Shown piece by piece: positions 3,012 to 20,981 of a stretch of DNA of 21,389 nucleotides (positions are counted from its first letter, which is position 1; each line of letters opens with the position of its first letter). Location of the stretch: positions 1-21,389 of IMG/VR virus record IMGVR_UViG_3300027754_000503. One strand, written 5' to 3'. This DNA comes from a virus. A program made the position numbers and the translations under genes. The notes below the pieces were generated by a model. It saw nothing but the letters and a program-made list of their open reading frames with translations. It was not told the origin of the DNA and made no database searches.

Positions 3012-6000
3012 ATGCTGCACGAACCTGTCAAGGCTTTGAAGCCACTGCCCATGCTGGAACTGCCAAAGATACCCGGAAAGGGTAGGGAGCAGACCTTGCA
3101 GGAGTGGCACGCTGCTGGTGGCAGTGTTCCGGTGCAGTACAAGAGCAGGCCTCATGTCTGGCACGCCAAGGTCAAGCAGTACGCTGACGGTGGCTCGGTA
3201 GGTGGTGAGGCTTACGGCAACGCCCCTGACAGCAGCGATAGCGGGGTAGTGCAGGACGCCCAGCACTTTGCTGATGGCGGCGTTATTCACATGGCTGGTG
3301 GCGGTAGGCTTGGCTCTGCCCCTAGTGGCCGTGGCCCAATGACCGCAGGACAGCCCAAGAGGCGCGAGGCCAGCATTACTGAGGCAGTGACGCAAGGTCT
3401 TCTTCCAATGCTGTACGGGGCCGCTAAAGGCTCCGCATCCCATGTTGGTGGCGTGGCGGGTGATCTTGAAAGCCTTGCACGAGAGGGCTTAAATTTTTCA
3501 TTTGGCCCCGGTGGCGTTAATCTTAGCGAGGAGACATTCCTTCCTACGTCAGAAGATGTGCGTGGATACCTACCTTCTTTGAAACGGTTTGGCCCAACGG
3601 TTGCAGGCGTTGAAGATATTGGTGCTGACCTTGGGCAAAACCTTGTTGGAATGATGTTTGACCCGGCTGCGTTTAGGGCGGCTACCAAAGGCGCGAAGGC
3701 TGTTGGGCGTGGAGCGCTTGACCTAGCGAAGTCTGATGCTGCTCATCGCGTAGTGCAGAAGGCCCTGTCGTCCCCGCTGATGGCCCCATCGCATCAGATG
3801 AGCGTAGTGAAGCAGCCCGGTGGAAACTGGCTGACGGGCAAGGTTGAGCATGATGTCAAGCACTTGAAGACCCCTCATGGTACGGACTATCTTGAAGCAG
3901 ATTTGCGTGATCTTCGGTCGCGGTTTGGTGATTTGCCAGCTTATGAAACGGCAGATAAAGAAATCCAAGCGTCAAAGGCGGCTGACAAGTGGGTTGATAG
4001 TAACCTGACCAAATACATCAAGAACGAGATGGGGTCACCCAAAGACCCGGTGCGTCAGTTGTTTGACCAGAAGGCGCTTGATATTGAGGCAAAGTACGCC
4101 AAAGACATAGAGCGTGCAGACCGTGTTGCCCAGCGTGCGGCTGATGAGCCTGATCCACAACGCAAAGCTAACCTTGAGCGTGAGTCTAGACGCCTTAGCA
4201 GTAAAGCATTGGCTGATGCTGAGTTGGCTGAACAACACATTACGCATCAAAAAGGTATTGAAGAAGACCAAGATTACTTTTCCTCTTCGCTTCAAGATCG
4301 GCGATTGAGGGAAGGATTCCCGCCATCCGGACTAGCTACGTCGAGGTCAGGCCAAGCATGGGAGCAAGTCTCTGACCAAGGTATTGAAGCAAGCCGTGCT
4401 GGCAATATTCAAAAGGCAGTGCAAGACGAAGATACGGTTAAAAGGGTAACACGAGCTTGGCTTGCAAAGCGTGATGCTTTGAATAATAATTTTGACGAGT
4501 TTCTTCGTGCTAGACCAAATTTAAATGAATCAGATATATATTCATTAAATAGAAGAACTACGCTTGATGACAAAGCAAGAATGACTGGAGATACAGAGTA
4601 TCAAAAATCAGCCAGCGAATATTATGACGCTCAACATGGGTGGTCAAGTGACGATGCACGACTTGGTAAAGAAAACCCTTGGATTAGCAAAGTTGATCCA
4701 GACAGTTCGGTGTATTCTTCTTTTACAAACCACCTCGGCTTTCACCATATCGTTGATGTACTGAAAGCAGACATGGCGGCAGGCCGCATTCGCCCTGAGC
4801 AACTGAACAAGATGAGCATGGAGCAAGCGGTTAGGCGTACTGCTGAGTATGACCTAGACGCTGCAAAGGCGGCGGCAGCAGCCCGAGCCAAGAGCTTGGA
4901 AAATATGCCCGTCCTCAAAGAATACCCAGAGGGCTACAAGTGGGTGCAGCTAACCGAGCCGGGGCAGTTCGCTCAAGAGTCTAACGTGATGGGCCACTCG
5001 GTACGTGGCTACGAACCGCCAAGAGGCCACCCTGAACACATCCCAGAGTCCGGGACTGAAGGAAGCGACTACTACGGTCACGGCGGATGGGACGCCATTA
5101 AGTCGGGTAAGGCAAAGATTTATTCTTTGCGTGATCCAGAGGGAATGTCCCATGCAACGGTTGAGACAAGCAACAAACCAGATTACGACAAAGCCGCAAG
5201 AATTATGGGTATTGACGACCCAACGCAAGCTGATATAGCCAGCCTTATAGCAGAAGGAAAACTGCCAAATTCAGAGCGCATTACCCAAATCAAAGGCAAG
5301 CGCAACGAAAAACCAAATGAACAGTATCAACCTTATGTTAGTGATTTTGTAAAATCAAACAACTGGGCTGATGTTGGTGATTTGGAAAATACTAATTTGG
5401 CAAAACTTGGCAAAAATTATGTAACACTTGATGAATTAAATGAAGCAAAAAAACCAGCACAAAAGTTTTTAGCTGAACATCCGGGTTTTGAAAAATTCCG
5501 TAACGCGCATGAAAAATTGTTTACTGAAGGGTATGGTAGTCCAGAATATCAAGCAAACGAAAAGATTCGTGGGCAACCAGTACACAAAGATATTCCGTAC
5601 ACATACTCTGATTTAAAAGCCGTATTGGAAAATCCTGAAGATTGGGCAGACAAAACAGTTGGGGCTGGTGAGATTCTGTCCAAACATTTGGAACTAATAG
5701 ATAAGGTTCGTCGGCTATATGGCGACTTGCCAGCAGAAAAAGTATCTGGTATGAAAGCTGGCGGTGAAGTCCATATGGCTGACGGCGGTGCAGCCTTTGG
5801 CAAGTACCCTGCGATGAAGGCCAGTACGTCTAAGGGCAAGAAGGAGGCACAGTACCGCCTGCCGCTTGATGTGGCCCGTGGCGCTGTTGCTGGTGTGCTT
5901 GGTATGCCCGGTGACCTTGAGACCCTTGGGCGGCTTGGCTTGAACTTTGCGTTCGGCCCCGGTGGTGTTGATGTCAGCAACAAATCATTCCTGCCAACGT

Positions 6001-8318
6001 CAGAGGACATTGAGAAGCGCATCCCGTTCCGTGGTGAGGAGCCTGTCAACAAGCTAGGTGCTGGCTTTGGTTCGCTGATTGGTGGACTTTCCCCTGCCCC
6101 AGCCAATGCAGCTATTAAAGGCGCCAAGGCTGTTGGACAAGGTGCCGCTAAGGCAGCAAAGTCTGAAACTGTCCGCAATTTAGTTGAAAAGGCACTTGAG
6201 TCACCCATGCTGGCCCCAGCAAGGCCCATGTACGCTGCGCCCAAAGCACCAAAAGGTGTTGAGCCTATCGTGGTTCGCACGCCTGAAGAGCGGGCTGTAA
6301 TCGACAAGTTCGGCCAGAAGCAAGAGCAGGAAGCTGCCCGTAAAAAGAAGGTTGAGAAGGCAGCGTTATCTGAACCCGATGAATCATCTGCCCCGCCAAA
6401 ATCAAAAGGAAAACGTACTGCGGATTCTGCTGACGTTTACCGCAGGATGGCCGAGACGGAGGGCGATGAAGCCGTGCTAAAGGCTGCAAAAGCCGGTGAG
6501 CATCTGAAGCCTACCGCTAGTGGCTATGTTGGCGCACCGCGCACTGTGACCAGCCCACAAGGCCTTGGCGCAATGCGTAAAGCAATGGACAAAGACTTTG
6601 TTGATTCGGTTGAGGCTGTGCGCCTTGCTGATGCAGACCGACTTGGCACATGGTACGACCGTGCCAAACAGGGAATTGCCGAAAGCACTGAACCTTACCA
6701 ACTTCCTCGCACTCTTGAGCAGCATGGCGTTTACTCCGCAGGCGTAAGCCCAGAGTCAGAGTTGACCTTTGCGTTGAAGCATTTAAACAGCCGGGTAGCG
6801 GGTGAGCCGGGTATGGCTTATCGCGGCGCTGGGATGAGGAACCTTGACGAAGCCGTAGCTGAAAACCGTCCAGCCAATATGGGGTTCAAGATTGGTGAGT
6901 ACGCTAACAAGAATGACCCGCGCCTTCCAAACACTGGATTGTTCGGCGTGAATGACTTCCGCAGGGCGCAAGGCATGGGCTATACCGATCCACAAGGTAT
7001 GCCGTGGAAGGCGGGCGTATCTGCAACTATGCACCCGTTTATGGACGCTGAGACGGCCTTACAAGTTAATCGCGCCAACACCGCAAGGACTGGTGGGCGT
7101 ACTGACTGGGCTGGCCCGCACATCCAAGAAGTTCCTTGGGTTTATGGAAAAGCACAAGATTTGCACAGCCGAGGTGTAAAGGGCCGGTACAAGGGCGATG
7201 AGCTTGAAGGCATCAAGGGCGCTTTGCAAGACGCCAATAACACTGCCCGTGATTATTTCTACAAGCAAACTGGGTCGGCTACACACGAAGCCATTCCGGG
7301 GGCAAACACTGGTCATGTCCCGCAGATGATTGACGCCCCCTATGCTGAGAAGGTGGCATACGGGAACACTGGCCGGTGGGACGTACCAGCCCCAGAATAC
7401 GCAATGAGCGACATGGGGACGGTTGGTGCTGGTAACCGGGATGCAATCTATAGTGCTTTGGGTTATCGGCAACTTCCAACGATTGAGGCTTCGGGGGCTT
7501 ATTTCCCAGAAGGGTCAAAAATTGCAGAACACCAACCGGTAAAAATTGCTCGTCCATTGTTGGATTTTCCAACAGGCGGAGAAGGTTTGATAGCCGACCC
7601 AACACGGCAAACATTAGAGTTTGGTGAACGATTCCGCGCATTAAATGATGCACAAGAAGCGTTTGGGTTTAATTTGCCAAACACCATGAATGCCGTAAAA
7701 GGAAAAAATTCGTTGGTGCTTGATACCAGACGTTCCAATCCAAAAAACTTAGACGAGCCGCACACGGGGGTGATGCCCTCTGACCAGCAAATGGGTGCGT
7801 TGACGCAAGCATTGGGTGATGTCGGCTATGGTGTTGCCCCAACTAGCCGAGGGGCAACCGTGTTCCCATTTGATTCCAAAGCAACAGCCAAAGATGCTAG
7901 GAAACTGATGAAGAAAAAAGGTGCAGAGCTTCAAAAGATTTATCCTTCTGAAATGGAGCCTTCGTTAAATTCATCTGGATACGGGCCGGGTGTTGGGATG
8001 TACACACCGGAAGGTTTCAGGGGTACTGAACCATTCAGCGGGCAGGCAACAATGGGACTTCTAAAAGAAGCCTCATACTTGCCACCTGAAGTAGCTCTTA
8101 ATTTAGGAGAGTCTGAAAGTGTAAGAAATGCCATTCGCGGGAAAAGAACTCGCGATGCTGGTCTACCCGGTGCGCGGGCCGACATACAAGAAACCCGCCG
8201 GTTCTTTAGCGAAGCTGATTGGCCTAAAGCTGTTGCACTAATTCGTCAAGGCTTTACGCCTGCGGCGGCTTTGGCTGCTCTTGGCTACTCGGCATCCAGT
8301 ATGGCTAAAGATCGTTGA
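3012..8318 (+). CDS. Giant PcfJ-domain polyvalent-type protein (1768 aa)
   Basis: A very large multidomain protein; SD GAGG at 3000-3003. The N-terminus carries glycine motifs YADGGSV (57-63) and FADGGVI (86-92). Repeat module R1 covers about 130-263 (core FGPGGV, FLPTSED). A charged helical stretch follows, then a PcfJ-like domain at about 640-790 with MGHSVRGY (660-667), IYSLRDPEGMSHATVE (703-718) and ITQIKGKRN (757-765). Motif MADGG (922-926) precedes a diverged second module R2 (about 950-1075) and a long unassigned region (about 1170-1768). PcfJ domains occur in conjugative-plasmid and phage polyvalent proteins, which enter the cell with incoming DNA. I infer a virion-carried effector. 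Its position between terL and portal, internal duplication and AT-rich patches suggest a fused or acquired insert. No enzyme activity can be assigned. Confidence 0.85.
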   Translation: MLHEPVKALKPLPMLELPKIPGKGREQTLQEWHAAGGSVPVQYKSRPHVWHAKVKQYADGGSVGGEAYGNAPDSSDSGVVQDAQHFADGGVIHMAGGGRLGSAPSGRGPMTAGQPKRREASITEAVTQGLLPMLYGAAKGSASHVGGVAGDLESLAREGLNFSFGPGGVNLSEETFLPTSEDVRGYLPSLKRFGPTVAGVEDIGADLGQNLVGMMFDPAAFRAATKGAKAVGRGALDLAKSDAAHRVVQKALSSPLMAPSHQMSVVKQPGGNWLTGKVEHDVKHLKTPHGTDYLEADLRDLRSRFGDLPAYETADKEIQASKAADKWVDSNLTKYIKNEMGSPKDPVRQLFDQKALDIEAKYAKDIERADRVAQRAADEPDPQRKANLERESRRLSSKALADAELAEQHITHQKGIEEDQDYFSSSLQDRRLREGFPPSGLATSRSGQAWEQVSDQGIEASRAGNIQKAVQDEDTVKRVTRAWLAKRDALNNNFDEFLRARPNLNESDIYSLNRRTTLDDKARMTGDTEYQKSASEYYDAQHGWSSDDARLGKENPWISKVDPDSSVYSSFTNHLGFHHIVDVLKADMAAGRIRPEQLNKMSMEQAVRRTAEYDLDAAKAAAAARAKSLENMPVLKEYPEGYKWVQLTEPGQFAQESNVMGHSVRGYEPPRGHPEHIPESGTEGSDYYGHGGWDAIKSGKAKIYSLRDPEGMSHATVETSNKPDYDKAARIMGIDDPTQADIASLIAEGKLPNSERITQIKGKRNEKPNEQYQPYVSDFVKSNNWADVGDLENTNLAKLGKNYVTLDELNEAKKPAQKFLAEHPGFEKFRNAHEKLFTEGYGSPEYQANEKIRGQPVHKDIPYTYSDLKAVLENPEDWADKTVGAGEILSKHLELIDKVRRLYGDLPAEKVSGMKAGGEVHMADGGAAFGKYPAMKASTSKGKKEAQYRLPLDVARGAVAGVLGMPGDLETLGRLGLNFAFGPGGVDVSNKSFLPTSEDIEKRIPFRGEEPVNKLGAGFGSLIGGLSPAPANAAIKGAKAVGQGAAKAAKSETVRNLVEKALESPMLAPARPMYAAPKAPKGVEPIVVRTPEERAVIDKFGQKQEQEAARKKKVEKAALSEPDESSAPPKSKGKRTADSADVYRRMAETEGDEAVLKAAKAGEHLKPTASGYVGAPRTVTSPQGLGAMRKAMDKDFVDSVEAVRLADADRLGTWYDRAKQGIAESTEPYQLPRTLEQHGVYSAGVSPESELTFALKHLNSRVAGEPGMAYRGAGMRNLDEAVAENRPANMGFKIGEYANKNDPRLPNTGLFGVNDFRRAQGMGYTDPQGMPWKAGVSATMHPFMDAETALQVNRANTARTGGRTDWAGPHIQEVPWVYGKAQDLHSRGVKGRYKGDELEGIKGALQDANNTARDYFYKQTGSATHEAIPGANTGHVPQMIDAPYAEKVAYGNTGRWDVPAPEYAMSDMGTVGAGNRDAIYSALGYRQLPTIEASGAYFPEGSKIAEHQPVKIARPLLDFPTGGEGLIADPTRQTLEFGERFRALNDAQEAFGFNLPNTMNAVKGKNSLVLDTRRSNPKNLDEPHTGVMPSDQQMGALTQALGDVGYGVAPTSRGATVFPFDSKATAKDARKLMKKKGAELQKIYPSEMEPSLNSSGYGPGVGMYTPEGFRGTEPFSGQATMGLLKEASYLPPEVALNLGESESVRNAIRGKRTRDAGLPGARADIQETRRFFSEADWPKAVALIRQGFTPAAALAALGYSASSMAKDR
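3399..3800 (+). repeat. Intragenic module R1 of the giant protein
   Basis: Residues about 130-263. The key segment reads GDLESLAREGLNFSFGPGGV followed by FLPTSED, a variable stretch, GAKAVGRGA and ALSSPLMAP. The same order recurs in module R2 at 5859-6236. The copies match clearly in protein but are well diverged in DNA, so the duplication is old or the modules were joined by recombination. Confidence 0.8.
5859..6236 (+). repeat. Intragenic module R2 of the giant protein
   Basis: Residues about 950-1075. GDLETLGRLGLNFAFGPGGV, FLPTSED, GAKAVGQGA and ALESPMLAP appear in the same order as in R1 (3399-3800). Each copy is preceded by a HMA[G/D]GG segment, so the duplicated unit includes the glycine motif plus the module. 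Confidence 0.8.
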
Positions 8319-11226: not shown

Positions 11227-11405
11227 AAACCCTTGGTGACTTAATTGGTGGTGTGAAGACTAAGCAAGCTGAAATAGCTGCTTCCCTCGTTGCTGGAAAT
11301 GCGACGAACTGGGAGTCTTACATCCGCTTAGTGGGGCATAACGCAGGGCTGCAAGAAGCCCTCGACATCCTCGACAGTTTAATGAAGGAAGACAATGACA
11401 ACTAA
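11223..11405 (+). CDS. Small helical hypothetical protein (60 aa)
   Basis: A 60-residue protein starting at GTG, overlapping the previous stop by four bases. It is almost wholly helical in appearance: MKTLGDLIGGVKTKQAEIAA, then NWESYIRLVGHNAGLQEALD and an acidic tail. Two helices joined near AGNATNW would form a hairpin. It overlaps the co-chaperonin start by 11 bases. No named family comes to mind. No strong ribosome site precedes the GTG, so it probably depends on coupling to the 49-codon ORF. A structural or assembly role is suggested only by its place between portal and co-chaperonin. Confidence 0.7.
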   Translation: MKTLGDLIGGVKTKQAEIAASLVAGNATNWESYIRLVGHNAGLQEALDILDSLMKEDNDN

Positions 11406-11826
11406 TACCGTAGCTTCTAACGAAGCTGAGATAGCTTGGGCATTTCCGAGCGTTGATCCCGGTGCAAAGCCTTTGGGCGGACGAGTTTTGGTTCAACTCC
11501 GTAGGTCAAGGAAGAAAACAAAATCAGGCTTGATATTGCCTCATGAGACCAAGGAAACAGAGAAGTGGCAAAACATGGTGGCACGGGTTGTCGCTATTGG
11601 GCCACTTGCGTTTAAACACCGCGACACGATGCAGTCTTGGCCCGAAGGGTCTTGGTGCGAAGTTGGCGATTACTTGCGAGTTCCTAAGTGGGGCGGCGAC
11701 CGTTGGGAAGTACCAGTCCCCGGTGAAGATGACATTGAAGAGCCAGCGCTGTTCATGATCATCAACGACCATGAGGTTATCGCAAAGTTGACCGGTGATC
11801 CACTTGCCATGAGGGCCTTCCTATGA
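11395..11826 (+). CDS. GroES-like co-chaperonin (Cpn10 family)
   Basis: A phage version of the GroES lid, expected to act with host GroEL to fold capsid protein. The 143 residues begin with a 24-residue extension. The Cpn10 signature follows: KPLGGRVLVQLRRSRKKTKS (25-44), mobile-loop tripeptide LIL (46-48) in SGLILPHETKETEKWQ, then MVARVVAIGPLAF (61-73), VGDYLRVPKWGG (90-101) and the closing strand ALFMIINDHEVIAKL (118-132). Host GroES is about 97 residues, so this one has an extended N-terminus and a longer middle insert (about 73-90). T4 gp31 is the known precedent for a phage GroES substitute. The gene overlaps both neighbours (11 and 4 bases) and sits directly before the scaffold. Confidence 0.85.
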   Translation: MTTNTVASNEAEIAWAFPSVDPGAKPLGGRVLVQLRRSRKKTKSGLILPHETKETEKWQNMVARVVAIGPLAFKHRDTMQSWPEGSWCEVGDYLRVPKWGGDRWEVPVPGEDDIEEPALFMIINDHEVIAKLTGDPLAMRAFL

Positions 11827-17294: not shown

Positions 17295-17678
17295 ATGCCA
17301 AGCAAGTCACCTTCCCAACATCGCTTGATGGAGGCAGTTGCTCACAGCCCTTCTTTCGCCAAGAAAGTGGGCATCCCAACAAAAGTTGGAAAAGACTTTG
17401 CCAAGGCTGATGAAGGCAGGAAGTTCAAAGGAGGCGGGCCAAGCCTTGCTGTTGGCCGAGGAGAAAAGCTACCAGTTAGTCAAGGCGCAGGACTTACCCA
17501 GAAGGGCCGCGAGAAGTACAATCGTGAGACCGGATCGCACCTGAAGGCACCCCAGCCACAGGGCGGTTCACGCAAGGATTCTTTCTGCGCTCGGATGTCT
17601 GGCGTAGTCAAACATTCAAAGGGTGATGCTCCACGGGCTAAGGCATCGCTGAAGCGCTGGAACTGCCCCGGTTGGTGA
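17295..17678 (+). CDS. Small basic protein with DUF6321-like C-terminus
   Basis: A 127-residue basic protein starting two bases after the previous stop with no clear ribosome site, so probably coupled. The N-terminal part reads SQHRLMEAVAHSPSFAKKVG and VGKDFAKADEGRKFKGGG (1-48), a sequence style frequent in phages. The C-terminal part GLTQKGREKYNRETGSHLKA (66-85), SFCARMSGV (96-104) and ASLKRWNCPGW (117-127) matches my memory of the DUF6321 pattern in phage proteins. C98 and C124 are the only cysteines. No enzymatic role is known to me. The excess of Lys and Arg suggests a nucleic-acid-facing or packaged protein. Confidence 0.75.
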   Translation: MPSKSPSQHRLMEAVAHSPSFAKKVGIPTKVGKDFAKADEGRKFKGGGPSLAVGRGEKLPVSQGAGLTQKGREKYNRETGSHLKAPQPQGGSRKDSFCARMSGVVKHSKGDAPRAKASLKRWNCPGW

Positions 17679-17709: not shown

Positions 17710-18186
17710 ATGGCAATGACAGGTAACCCAATTTTAGACACAATAAAAGGTATTGACCCCGGTATGCCAAAGGAGCTGGGCGGCGGCGGCGGCGGCGGCC
17801 GTGGCGGCGGCGGCGGCTTTGGTGGCGGCGGCGGCGGCTTTGGCGGCGGCGGCGGCGGCGGCCGTGGCGGCGGTGCTTACGGTGGCTTGGAAACAGTCAA
17901 TCAAGGCTCAAGCCAAATTGGCAAATCGCTAGGGGAAGTCGGAAATAGCCTTGATCAAAGCAACATGGCTTTGGCACAGGGCCGACAAGCCCTTGGTGGT
18001 GGTACACAACAATTTGGCGGCGGTGGTGGTGGGTTTAACCCAATGCAGCCACTAGCCGTAGATGAGCTGATGCCAATGTACAAAAAGGGTGGTTCTGTCA
18101 GTTACACAGGAAAATCTGGCCGTTTGAACCTTGGGTCGGGTCGGGTCTCTACCGCGACAAAAAACAAGTCCAATTCTCGTTGGTAA
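17710..18186 (+). CDS. Poly-glycine low-complexity protein (158 aa)
   Basis: A 158-residue protein with AAAAGGAA before the ATG. Residues 24-59 are nearly all glycine with F and R punctuations (FGGGGGGF, GRGGGAYGG). A helical middle follows (about 60-97; IGKSLGEVGNSLDQSNMALA), then a second glycine run (103-108). The tail carries YKKGGSV (124-130) and a basic Ser-rich end. The tail motif is shared with the 321-residue protein and the giant protein. Glycine-rich stretches with Phe and Arg resemble flexible or phase-separating segments. No homologue is recognised. The ordered C-terminal half and context support expression; the repeat part could vary in length by slippage. Confidence 0.65.
   Translation: MAMTGNPILDTIKGIDPGMPKELGGGGGGGRGGGGGFGGGGGGFGGGGGGGRGGGAYGGLETVNQGSSQIGKSLGEVGNSLDQSNMALAQGRQALGGGTQQFGGGGGGFNPMQPLAVDELMPMYKKGGSVSYTGKSGRLNLGSGRVSTATKNKSNSRW
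17778..17876 (+). repeat. GGC trinucleotide low-complexity tract
   Basis: About 100 bases consisting almost only of GGC triplets, broken by CGT and TTT codons, encode the poly-glycine stretch. In-frame slippage would change the protein length in steps of one residue without a frameshift. It is the strongest simple-sequence repeat in the window and a likely assembly or sequencing trouble spot. Confidence 0.85.
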
Positions 18187-18190
18187 GAAA

Positions 18191-19252
18191 ATGGCGTACT
18201 CAGGAACGACAGGTACGACTGTAACGACAGTTCAGACGCTGATTGATCATGGCGCACGCCGCTGTGGGAAGATGGCTGAAGAATTGACGTCTGAGCAAGT
18301 CCTGTCGGCCCGTGAGTCGCTGTACTTCTTGTTGTCGAACCTGATCAATATTGGCATCCAGTATTGGGCCATCAGCAAGAAGGTCTACGGCTTCAAAGCT
18401 GACCAGTACATCTATGACCTTCCTCTTGGTGGAAATGACGTTCTGAACGTCCTGTACCGCTGGATGAACCGTCCAAATGGTTCCTACACCTCGTCTGCTG
18501 GTGGTGTTGTTGCTAACGTATATGACGGCAATGTCGATACTATCTGCACCCAGACGTCCGCAAATGGCAACATTTCGGTGGACTATGGTACGGCAAATCC
18601 AATCTACATTGGCTCTATTGGGTTTCTTCCCGCAGCTACCGGGTCTTGGTCGATCATCCTTGAAAGTTCAGTTGACAACACGACTTGGACGACCTTATCT
18701 GACCTTGGCACCATTCCAGTAGTCAACGGCGAGTGGGTTTGGACTGACATTGAAGCCGGTCAGACAACAGAGTTCTACCGAATCCGGGCGTATAGCGGCA
18801 CCACGTTGTCGCTGCGTGAACTGTATTTCGGCAACAACTCAACAGAAATTACAATGTCCCGTCTGAACCGGGACGACTATACGAACCTTCCAAACAAGAA
18901 CTTTACGGCCAATCAGCCGTTCCAGTTCTGGTTCAATCGCACCATCCCGCAATCAAAAATCTATCTGTGGCCTGTTCCGCAGAATGCTTTCTATCAGATG
19001 ACGGTGTGGTACTCGCGCCAGATCATGGACGTTGGTGACCTATACGGTGAGCTTGAGATACCGCAGCGCTGGTACATGGCTGTAGTCAGTATGCTGGCTC
19101 ACCAGATGAGCTTGGAGCTTCCGGGTGTCGAAATGACCCGGATTCAGTACCTTGAAGGCCAAGGAAGCAAGTACCTTTCAATGGCTGAAGAGGAAGAACG
19201 CGACCGGTCACCAATCTACTTCGCCCCGAATATTTCAGTTTATACGAGGTAA
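18191..19252 (+). CDS. P22 gp4-like head-to-tail adaptor with inserted discoidin-like domain
   Basis: This probably forms the ring that attaches to the portal and receives the tail hub. The 353 residues split into an N-terminal adaptor helix bundle (1-96; TLIDHGARRCGKMAEELTSE, ESLYFLLSNLINIGIQYW) and a C-terminal part (216-353; EITMSRLNRDDYTNLPNK, IPQSKIYLWPVPQNAFYQM, ELEIPQRWYMAVVSMLAHQM). Together these match the gp4-like tail-adaptor pattern. Between them, residues 97-215 form a jelly-roll-like insert (VVANVYDGNVDTICTQ, ISVDYG, WSIILESSVDNTTWTTLSDL, TEFYRIRAYSGTTLSLREL), typical of F5/8 type C (discoidin-like) domains that bind glycans. The ATG at 18191 is chosen over an upstream TTG at 18131, which lies inside the previous gene. 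Confidence 0.75.
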   Translation: MAYSGTTGTTVTTVQTLIDHGARRCGKMAEELTSEQVLSARESLYFLLSNLINIGIQYWAISKKVYGFKADQYIYDLPLGGNDVLNVLYRWMNRPNGSYTSSAGGVVANVYDGNVDTICTQTSANGNISVDYGTANPIYIGSIGFLPAATGSWSIILESSVDNTTWTTLSDLGTIPVVNGEWVWTDIEAGQTTEFYRIRAYSGTTLSLRELYFGNNSTEITMSRLNRDDYTNLPNKNFTANQPFQFWFNRTIPQSKIYLWPVPQNAFYQMTVWYSRQIMDVGDLYGELEIPQRWYMAVVSMLAHQMSLELPGVEMTRIQYLEGQGSKYLSMAEEEERDRSPIYFAPNISVYTR

Positions 19253-19254
19253 CC

Positions 19255-19617
19255 ATGCCGGTCTTCCTTGACACTCTTGGATATTCCGACATTGCCATCG
19301 CAATTTGCGATAGGTGCAAGATGAAGTATCCGCACGCTGTCATGAGGAATGACCCCAACTTTCCGGGTCTGCGGGTATGTAATACTGGGTGCGCTGATCA
19401 GCTTGATCCATACCGTTTACCTGCTCGTAAAACCGAAAGAATAACGATTCGGTTTCCAAGGCCAGATGCAAACATAGCTGCTTCTGACGACTTCCTTATG
19501 ACTGGAGGAACCAGCGAGTTCCAAATTTCGACGGAGCAGAACACGCAGACGCCGACACAGACGGGGAACAAAGACCAGATCGCGCCAAGCCCTCCAACTA
19601 ACGATCAGGGTCAATAA
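19255..19617 (+). CDS. Small zinc-ribbon-like protein
   Basis: A 120-residue protein beginning two bases after the adaptor stop, with GAGG eleven bases before its ATG. Four cysteines form a likely metal site: C18-x2-C21 (ICDRCKMKYP) and C42-x3-C46 (VCNTGCADQLDPYRLPARK). Then follow a short basic strand (ERITIRFPRPDA) and a Gln/Thr/Pro-rich disordered tail (about 88-120). The pattern, opening with a short LDTLGY segment and ending its core at DPYRLP, is frequent among unnamed small proteins placed between adaptor and fibre genes. Whether zinc is bound, and what it does, is unknown. The stop overlaps the fibre start by one base (TAATG). Confidence 0.75.
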   Translation: MPVFLDTLGYSDIAIAICDRCKMKYPHAVMRNDPNFPGLRVCNTGCADQLDPYRLPARKTERITIRFPRPDANIAASDDFLMTGGTSEFQISTEQNTQTPTQTGNKDQIAPSPPTNDQGQ

Positions 19618-20981
19618 TGTCCGCACAAGTAACAATCAGTCAACTCCCCACCGCTGGTGCAATTACTGGTAGTGAGCTTGTTCCTGTCGTCCAGAATGGC
19701 GTAACGGTACAGACTACAACTGGTGCTATCTCCGCATCCCCATCGCAGACCCAGACGTTCCTGACGGTAAACAACGAGCCTACGCTACCCAATAGCCGGT
19801 ACGTTGGTGTGACCAACGGTTTGGTCTTGACGGATGGCGGCGCTCAAGGGCTGTTCAACATCTCGACCACTGGGGCGTTGCTTTCGCTGAATAGCTCATC
19901 GACGGGCTTTCAAGTAAAGACTAATGGGTCAACCGTTGTTGGTAGGTCTATCACATCGTCTGGCGCTGGAGTTGGAATTACTAACGGTTCTGGTGTTGCT
20001 GGTAACCCGGTAATTGCTTTGACGGGCCAAATTGCTTCTTTGGCAAATTTGAGTGTTAATGGCATTCTTACTTTGGATACATCTGGAACCTTTGCGGCAA
20101 CCCAGATTCAAGGTACGGCAAACGAAATTGATGTTGCTAATGGAACGGCAATCAGCGGCTATCCAACAATTGGCCTTGCTGACAATCCGGTAATTCCCGG
20201 AACCGGGTCGATGAAAGTTCCTGTTGGGTCAACGGTTCTTCAGCCAATTGGATCACTTGGGGAGATGCGTTTCGATAGCACTACCGGCAACTTTGTTGGG
20301 TATACAAGCCTTGGCTGGCAACCATTTGCCGCTGGAAGTGGCGTAACGTCCATCAGCACGGGGCTAGGGCTTACCGGAGGGACTATAACGTCCACTGGCA
20401 CTATTTCGATGCTCAGTACCGACATTACGCTAGGTACTACCGTTGCATCGCTTGGAGCGACTGTTACGACCCTTGGTGGGCTTACGTCTGTTGCTGTAAC
20501 GCAGAATCCTACCAGCGCGTTGCAACTTGCAACCAAGCAGTACGTTGATGGGCTGCTTGTTTCGTACACCGCCGGGACAGGACTTACTCTTGTTGGGTCG
20601 CAGTTTAGCCTTACAAGTCCTGTTCTGGCTTCGCTTGGTGGGACTGGGCAGACGGCGTATACGGTGGGCGACATACTGTACGCCAGCACAGTTACTGACC
20701 TAGCTAAGTTGGCCGATGTCGCTGTCGGTAATGCGTTGATTTCTGGCGGCGTTGGGGTTGCCCCAAGCTATGGGAAGATTGGCCTTACAACACACGTATC
20801 TGGCACCCTTCCAATTGCCAGCGGCGGTACAAATGGCACGGCTTCGCCAACAGCAGGCGGGGCAATTTATGGAACCGGCACAGCATACGCAGTCACTGCG
20901 GCTGGAACGGCTGGGTATGTTTTAACATCAGCAGGGGCCAGCGCACCAACGTGGTCTGGCATCTCCGGAGGAACTTTCTAA
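19617..20981 (+). CDS. Tail fibre protein
   Basis: Probably a trimeric receptor-binding or connector fibre. The 454 residues are Gly/Ser/Thr/Val-rich with few charged or aromatic residues. The N-terminus VTISQLPTAGAITGSELVPV and VVQNGVTVQTTTGAI is the usual virion-attachment style. The shaft carries repeated short strands (GVTSISTGLGLTGGTITSTG), the fibre motif LQLATKQYVDGLL (about 302-314) and LGGTGQTAYTVGDILYAST (about 340-358), followed by LPIASGGTN and a short end. It lacks an obvious C-terminal chaperone or enzymatic domain. Host specificity cannot be told. It is coupled to both neighbours by TAATG overlaps, with GGAGG present before the next gene. Confidence 0.8.
   Translation: MSAQVTISQLPTAGAITGSELVPVVQNGVTVQTTTGAISASPSQTQTFLTVNNEPTLPNSRYVGVTNGLVLTDGGAQGLFNISTTGALLSLNSSSTGFQVKTNGSTVVGRSITSSGAGVGITNGSGVAGNPVIALTGQIASLANLSVNGILTLDTSGTFAATQIQGTANEIDVANGTAISGYPTIGLADNPVIPGTGSMKVPVGSTVLQPIGSLGEMRFDSTTGNFVGYTSLGWQPFAAGSGVTSISTGLGLTGGTITSTGTISMLSTDITLGTTVASLGATVTTLGGLTSVAVTQNPTSALQLATKQYVDGLLVSYTAGTGLTLVGSQFSLTSPVLASLGGTGQTAYTVGDILYASTVTDLAKLADVAVGNALISGGVGVAPSYGKIGLTTHVSGTLPIASGGTNGTASPTAGGAIYGTGTAYAVTAAGTAGYVLTSAGASAPTWSGISGGTF

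Follow-up and report, generated by a model that had tools for sequence, protein, structure and literature searches.

Phages of the T7/SU10 type carry a ring of twelve head-to-tail adaptors with six fibres attached, and the beta domain of these adaptors, termed the fibre dock in T7 and SU10, is described as missing in P22 and Sf6 (PMC6702177, PMC9509320). In the SU10 structure the dock loops of adjacent adaptors grip one fibre (PMC9509320). SU10 gp11, T7 gp11 and the KP32 adaptor all have a helix bundle split by the beta fibre-dock domain, and their genes are located between those for the capsid and the fibres, in both respects like the adaptor described here. P22 gp4 and Sf6 gp7 have the helix bundle in common with it and, being described as devoid of a fibre dock (PMC9509320, PMC6702177), would offer no site for an insert of the kind reported below. 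The solved adaptor chains, judged by length, have about 150-245 residues, too short to hold both this insert and the core.

A virion ring protein with an additional domain has been described in lactococcal skunaviruses, in which the evolved Dit contains an internal carbohydrate-binding module that aids adsorption; that study also reports that adsorption of phages with a classical Dit was reduced after an EPS plasmid was put into their hosts, and that recombinant phages with the Dit insertion were constructed in order to probe its link to adsorption (PMC10688798). The adaptor studied here and the evolved Dit have in common that both are virion ring proteins with an inserted domain of carbohydrate-binding type. 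However, the Dit is a different ring protein, located at the far end of a long tail, and its role in adsorption has been tested, whereas the role considered here is a proposed one. The core of our protein is a head-to-tail adaptor and not a distal tail protein, and the likeness to Dit is one of principle only.

The window (the whole stretch of DNA analysed, 21,389 bases, record IMGVR_UViG_3300027754_000503) is a viral fragment, so that the remainder of the tail is not seen, and it derives from a freshwater phage. The adaptor gene starts with ATG. The genes before it encode the large terminase subunit (PF03237, E 5.6e-24), a protein resembling portals (phrog_1216) and, by its PF25209 match, the capsid protein; after it come a small CxxC gene and then a fibre-like gene. 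This is the gene order of SU10/T7-type phages (portal, capsid, adaptor, fibre). The features are as follows.

18191-19252, plus strand: adaptor coding sequence (353 aa) with the inserted, predicted discoidin/CBM32-like domain
18218-18364, plus strand: helix bundle, N-terminal half (residues 10-58; model helices 14-24 and 34-54)
18368-18466, plus strand: beta fibre-dock domain, first part (residues 60-92; model strands 61-67, 74-76 and 81-93)
18467-18838, plus strand: predicted discoidin/CBM32-like insert (residues 93-216; from alignment, length counts, model, and structure and Pfam matches)
18524-18541, plus strand: D112/T117 loop within the insert, both residues invariant in 45/45 full-length inserts
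18734-18742, plus strand: strand motif W182-x-W184, conserved in both forms of the insert, full and short
18839-19057, plus strand: fibre-dock domain, second part (residues 217-289; PF24175 match at residues 224-307 and model strands)
19058-19198, plus strand: helix bundle, C-terminal half (residues 290-336; model helices 292-309 and 315-336)
19199-19249, plus strand: C-terminal tail (residues 337-353; assigned by position only, pLDDT about 57-64), possibly a portal-embracing arm
19255-19617, plus strand: small CxxC-containing gene, immediately 3' of the adaptor gene
19617-20981, plus strand: probable tail-fibre gene, with an N-terminal region common to fibres beside insert-less adaptors

The 353-aa protein is a head-to-tail adaptor of the gp4/SU10/T7 type carrying about 123 extra residues. 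Its closest named relative, encoded in MW202545 and annotated as 'tail adaptor', is 65% identical. The score of the window protein against PF24175 (SU10_adaptor), 23.8 bits, lies under the cut-off of 27; the adaptor of Roseobacter phage CRP-902, a tblastn relative of the window protein (E 7e-6), reaches 52.4 bits, over the cut-off, and through it the window protein is, as judged from sequence, related to the members of this family. A helix bundle split into halves with a beta fibre-dock domain between them is present in the predicted models of both the window protein and an insert-less relative. The original prediction had called the protein gp4-like, an assignment now backed by the alignment with P22 gp4 and by structural matches to solved adaptors (see below).

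The extra residues were delimited by aligning eight phage adaptors, the window protein included. In the adaptors of the Roseobacter phages CRP-901 and CRP-902 (226 aa), of Alcaligenes phage QDWS535 (230 aa) and of two Manatee Spring phages (220 and 230 aa), the insert is missing and both flanks align. The original prediction, which had proposed a comparison with adaptors lacking the insert, placed it at residues 97-215 (18479-18835); the extra segment is real, since these relatives have 1-8 residues there with flanks matching on both sides, while the bounds from the alignment are slightly wider, about residues 93-216 (18467-18838). With just 1-8 residues at this site in adaptors of Roseobacter, Pelagibacter and other phages, we discarded the idea that the insert is a piece of the ordinary adaptor fold.

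A pattern search of viral contigs gave 488 matches; 486 of them code for relatives, of which the best 80 were kept. The loci contained 393 adaptor ORFs, and 277 unique sequences, each 220 aa or longer, went into the alignment from which insert lengths were counted. The stretch measures 121-131 aa in all 120 window-like and L082-like sequences, 96-99 aa in all 57 Caulobacter-RW-like sequences (the short-insert, L083-like group) and 1-6 aa in all 100 remaining adaptors, numbers that say nothing on natural frequency because the loci were picked by similarity to the queries. The insert is fixed in one abundant clade. No other domain was seen at the site among L087-like loci (68 loci, 50 unique sequences measured) or in 31 L086-like loci (total lengths 187-237 aa). 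The long L259 and L272 proteins, considered as further insertions at the site, owe their extra length to the C-terminus. A scan of cellular genome contigs found no adaptor relatives, and no relatives of the Alcaligenes adaptor were found in viral contigs.

The position of the insert within the ring protein was approached through the insert-less adaptors, whose profile meets P22 gp4 weakly (E 0.012) in the helix regions flanking the middle part, the N-terminal one included; residues 60-92 correspond to a part missing from P22 gp4 in the profile alignment. The model of an insert-less relative (L211:4001-4678; pLDDT 73.4, pTM 0.47) was compared by VIA with whole adaptors, giving Z 13.1 for VP1, 12.8 for cyanophage A4, 10.8 for T7 gp11 and 10.3 for SU10, and Z 12.7 over 112 residues for P22 gp4 (rmsd 3.0-7.5 against VP1, P22 gp4, T7 gp11 and SU10). 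The matches to the SU10, T7, VP1 and A4 adaptors take in the greater part of the model. In it the insert would stand in place of the turn that joins strands 80-90 and 98-104. The insertion site is thus, per the alignment of the predicted structure with P22 gp4, T7 gp11 and SU10 gp11, a hairpin of the fibre-dock domain, and the loop of the ring protein in which the insert had originally been placed can now be named. The fibre-dock domain taken alone (residues 58-153 of the insert-less model) also resembles parts of P1, T4 and phiKZ baseplate proteins and the CBA120 tailspike TSP4, with Z about 7-8 throughout; the likeness possibly reflects a shared attachment fold, or merely a common arrangement.

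An AlphaFold2 model of the window protein from 85 sequences (mean pLDDT 84.8, pTM 0.72) is highly confident across the insert, with pLDDT 92-95 in most of its blocks, and the insert is predicted to be a jelly-roll beta-sandwich of the discoidin/CBM32 type, as had been expected when it was first likened to an F5/8 type C domain. A predicted fold other than a jelly roll, named in the original prediction as an outcome that would refute it, was thus not obtained. In Foldseek the first eight rows are all carbohydrate-binding modules, of the sugar-binding CBM32/CBM62 kinds at the top, the best being the galactose-containing CBM32 structure 2j1a (E 2.4e-7), while lower-ranked rows include APC/C subunits and factor VIII C2. 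VIA-align superposes the insert on the CBM32 4a42 with Z 17.6 and 2.0 A rmsd over 121 residues. The signal in the sequence is weaker: PF00754 (F5_F8_type_C) matches the window insert at E 0.004 (17.4-17.7 bits, cut-off 28.2), and neither the window protein nor its insert reaches the Pfam cut-off with any F5/8 type C or adaptor family. The same family is found at E <= 0.01 in 24 of 45 full-insert relatives (best 6e-6), and of the 17 relatives with a short insert 8 match it as well, the best at 6.4e-7. Since it recurs in relatives and the predicted fold agrees, the resemblance is beyond chance. Profiles of the short and the full insert are matched by hhalign with a probability of 98.9. Taking all this together, an adaptor with a discoidin/CBM32-like domain inserted in the fibre-dock hairpin is an anatomy of which we are very nearly certain.

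Compared with known CBM32 and F5/8 type C domains, the window insert differs in lying within a virion ring protein and in having no conserved galactose-site His. D112, T117, W182 and W184 are invariant in the 45 full inserts, and we take the D112-T117 loop to resemble the Asp-Gly-Asn-x-x-Thr calcium loop of F5/8 type C and CBM32 domains. The Asp and Thr of this motif are present in 45/45 full inserts and 0/17 short ones; the latter (Caulobacter phage RW group) have the loop gapped throughout, another departure from CBM32 and F5/8 type C domains, and retain the W-x-W strand and both linkers. A His forms part of the galactose site in well-known CBM32s. No His column is conserved among the 45 full and 17 short inserts, which therefore lack the ligand His of the galactose type; any His at all occurs in 21 of the full inserts, mostly at position 154, and in 5 of the short ones. 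Conservation gave no decisive contrast between the loops of the presumed ligand end and the opposite ones, the ends having been assigned from strand order.

Selection was estimated by the Nei-Gojobori method, retaining pairs with core dS of 0.05-1.0 and insert dS below 1.5. Mean dN/dS was 0.094 for the insert and 0.067 for the core (313 pairs, 66 sequences), 0.125 and 0.045 (77 pairs, 54 sequences), and 0.258 and 0.191 (486 pairs, 57 sequences). With values of 0.09-0.26, above those of the core, the insert is under purifying selection, though constrained less tightly than the ring. Diversification often marks host-specificity modules. Identity within the window group does drop faster in the insert (74%) than in the core (87%), yet the low dN/dS leaves a hypervariable receptor-binding module unsupported.

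A distant relative comes from the Rickettsiales endosymbiont Ca. Megaera polyxenophila, two plasmids of which look like phage-plasmids or integrated phages. Both contain a phage structural cassette (CP113869.1 48174-64423 and AP017967.1 57569-88519; L428 and L429) with a terminase, a GroES-like gene and a 356-aa adaptor among other genes. One copy, WPX99786.1, already bears the name 'Discoidin domain-containing protein' and not that of an adaptor; it has the same domain order as the window adaptor, with the insert at the same site. Its insert is 35.0% identical to that of the window (43/123) and its core 19.8% (40/202; Fisher p 0.004). Similarity is higher in the insert than in the core in 50/50 pairs that match the Megaera adaptor to a window-like or L082-like protein and in 20/24 with short-insert L083-like ones, against 0/456 cross-group and 13/210 within-group pairs among the other bearers (three groups), counts in which the pairs are non-independent and each group has at most 13 sequences. 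The Megaera core halves score best with insert-less Pelagibacter, Roseobacter-like and L087-like adaptors (54-68 bits) and reach only 32-36 bits with window-like cores, while its insert gives 79 bits with window-like inserts. The core tree also groups Megaera with insert-less adaptors (FastTree 0.906; ultrafast bootstrap 96 for the split), the AU test on this short core not rejecting a grouping of all insert bearers (p 0.336). The simplest reading of this mosaic suggests that the domain moves between adaptors into the same site. A wider generalization, of a mobile discoidin cassette passed among diverged adaptor lineages into the same hairpin and making neck-mounted adhesin collars ('evolved adaptors'), is put forward tentatively, and we would sooner bet against it than for it.

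The genes next to the adaptors tell us about the fibres. A window-type fibre N-terminus, sought up to 6 kb downstream, follows the adaptor in 90/97 window-like and 58/63 L082-like loci (148/160 with a full insert), in 6/77 L083-like and 0/78 L084-like loci, and in 51/63 of the insert-less L087-like loci, fragments being included so that misses are not absences. Homologous fibres after insert-less adaptors indicate that seating them does not, in general, require the insert, if they are docked on the adaptor. As a separate observation, the CxxC gene (19255-19617) is retained in the insert-bearing groups, with a homologue 3' of the adaptor in 96/97 window-like, 63/63 L082-like and 76/77 L083-like loci, and is by profile almost missing from the insert-less groups (0/78 L084-like, 1/63 L087-like).

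As to what the insert might do, we propose that a T7/SU10-type adaptor gained a discoidin/CBM32-like beta-sandwich in its fibre-dock hairpin and that, if twelve copies ring the neck below the portal as in solved relatives, the virion would bear a collar of twelve discoidin domains beside the six fibre attachment sites. This collar could be an accessory adhesin, binding a conserved polysaccharide of the host envelope multivalently and with low affinity, and would raise the odds of fibre engagement, by analogy with the carbohydrate-binding insert in the evolved Dit. We give this reading, in which glycan binding is inferred, a probability of about 0.45, and favour it because of the analogy with the evolved Dit, with a structural role in the dock close behind. 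Against a plain lectin speak the missing conserved His, the purifying selection and the fact that the RW group has lost the D112-T117 loop. If the discoidin fold instead served to enlarge the dock, contacting the fibre base, nozzle or capsid vertex and binding no sugar, its location inside the fibre-dock domain, the strong purifying selection and a short form that keeps the W-x-W strand and linkers minus that loop would all be accommodated, and SU10, where dock loops of neighbouring adaptors hold one fibre, would offer a precedent (PMC9509320). This structural role, a substantial possibility that we nevertheless rate as somewhat improbable, has to face the homologous fibres after most insert-less L087-like adaptors and an insert that evolves faster than the dock.

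F5/8 type C folds also bind non-sugar ligands or act as scaffolds, and the ligand could be a lipid headgroup, an S-layer or another protein of the host surface; lipid binders with this fold are known, among them factor VIII C2, which is one of the Foldseek rows, and the galactose-type site is not conserved. Because sugar-binding CBM32/CBM62 modules head the fold matches, although the fold does not fix the ligand, we consider this unlikely. A relic domain without function would account for scores below the Pfam cut-offs and for the shortening in one subclade, but it is hard to reconcile with dN/dS of 0.09-0.26 and with an insert present in 177/177 sequences of the three insert-bearing groups, and appears very improbable. 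Least credible of all is binding of environmental mucus, a possibility raised in the original prediction, or of animal glycans along the lines of the bacteriophage-adherence-to-mucus model: the fold alone would permit it, nothing in sequence or context points to animal mucus, and the relatives of known source come from spring water, Caulobacter, seawater and an endosymbiont in a ciliate culture.

Both parts of the protein are of known kinds, and the distant relative has already been called discoidin. A discoidin insert in an adaptor is not named in the titles and abstract openings of the open literature searched, nor were the combination as such, the fibre-dock site or the mosaic relative found there. 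The insert would add the T7/SU10-type adaptor ring to the virion parts bearing inserted modules of carbohydrate-binding type, would provide a phage group that is abundant (hundreds of contigs) with a second candidate site of host contact besides the fibres, and would mark one fibre-dock hairpin as tolerating a whole extra domain. Were the mobile cassette also true, adhesin collars would occur in phages of freshwater bacteria and in Rickettsiales phage-plasmids. The Caulobacter RW group is culturable, which makes part of the proposal testable.

Some other genes of the window deserve mention. Between the terminase and the portal there is an ORF of 1768 aa (3012-8318) with no Pfam or PHROG match, in which stretches of 108 and 64 nt repeat about 2.4 kb apart with 72% identity, which suggests, from the nucleotide sequence, an internal duplication. 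A small DUF6321 protein (PF19846, E 1.3e-16) is encoded at 17295-17678, and the ORF at 17710-18186 contains a long glycine-rich run, mostly of GGC repeats. Within the structural gene cluster there is also a gene for a GroES-like co-chaperonin (11395-11826; PF00166, E 6.4e-9), and similarly named genes occupy the same position in several relatives.
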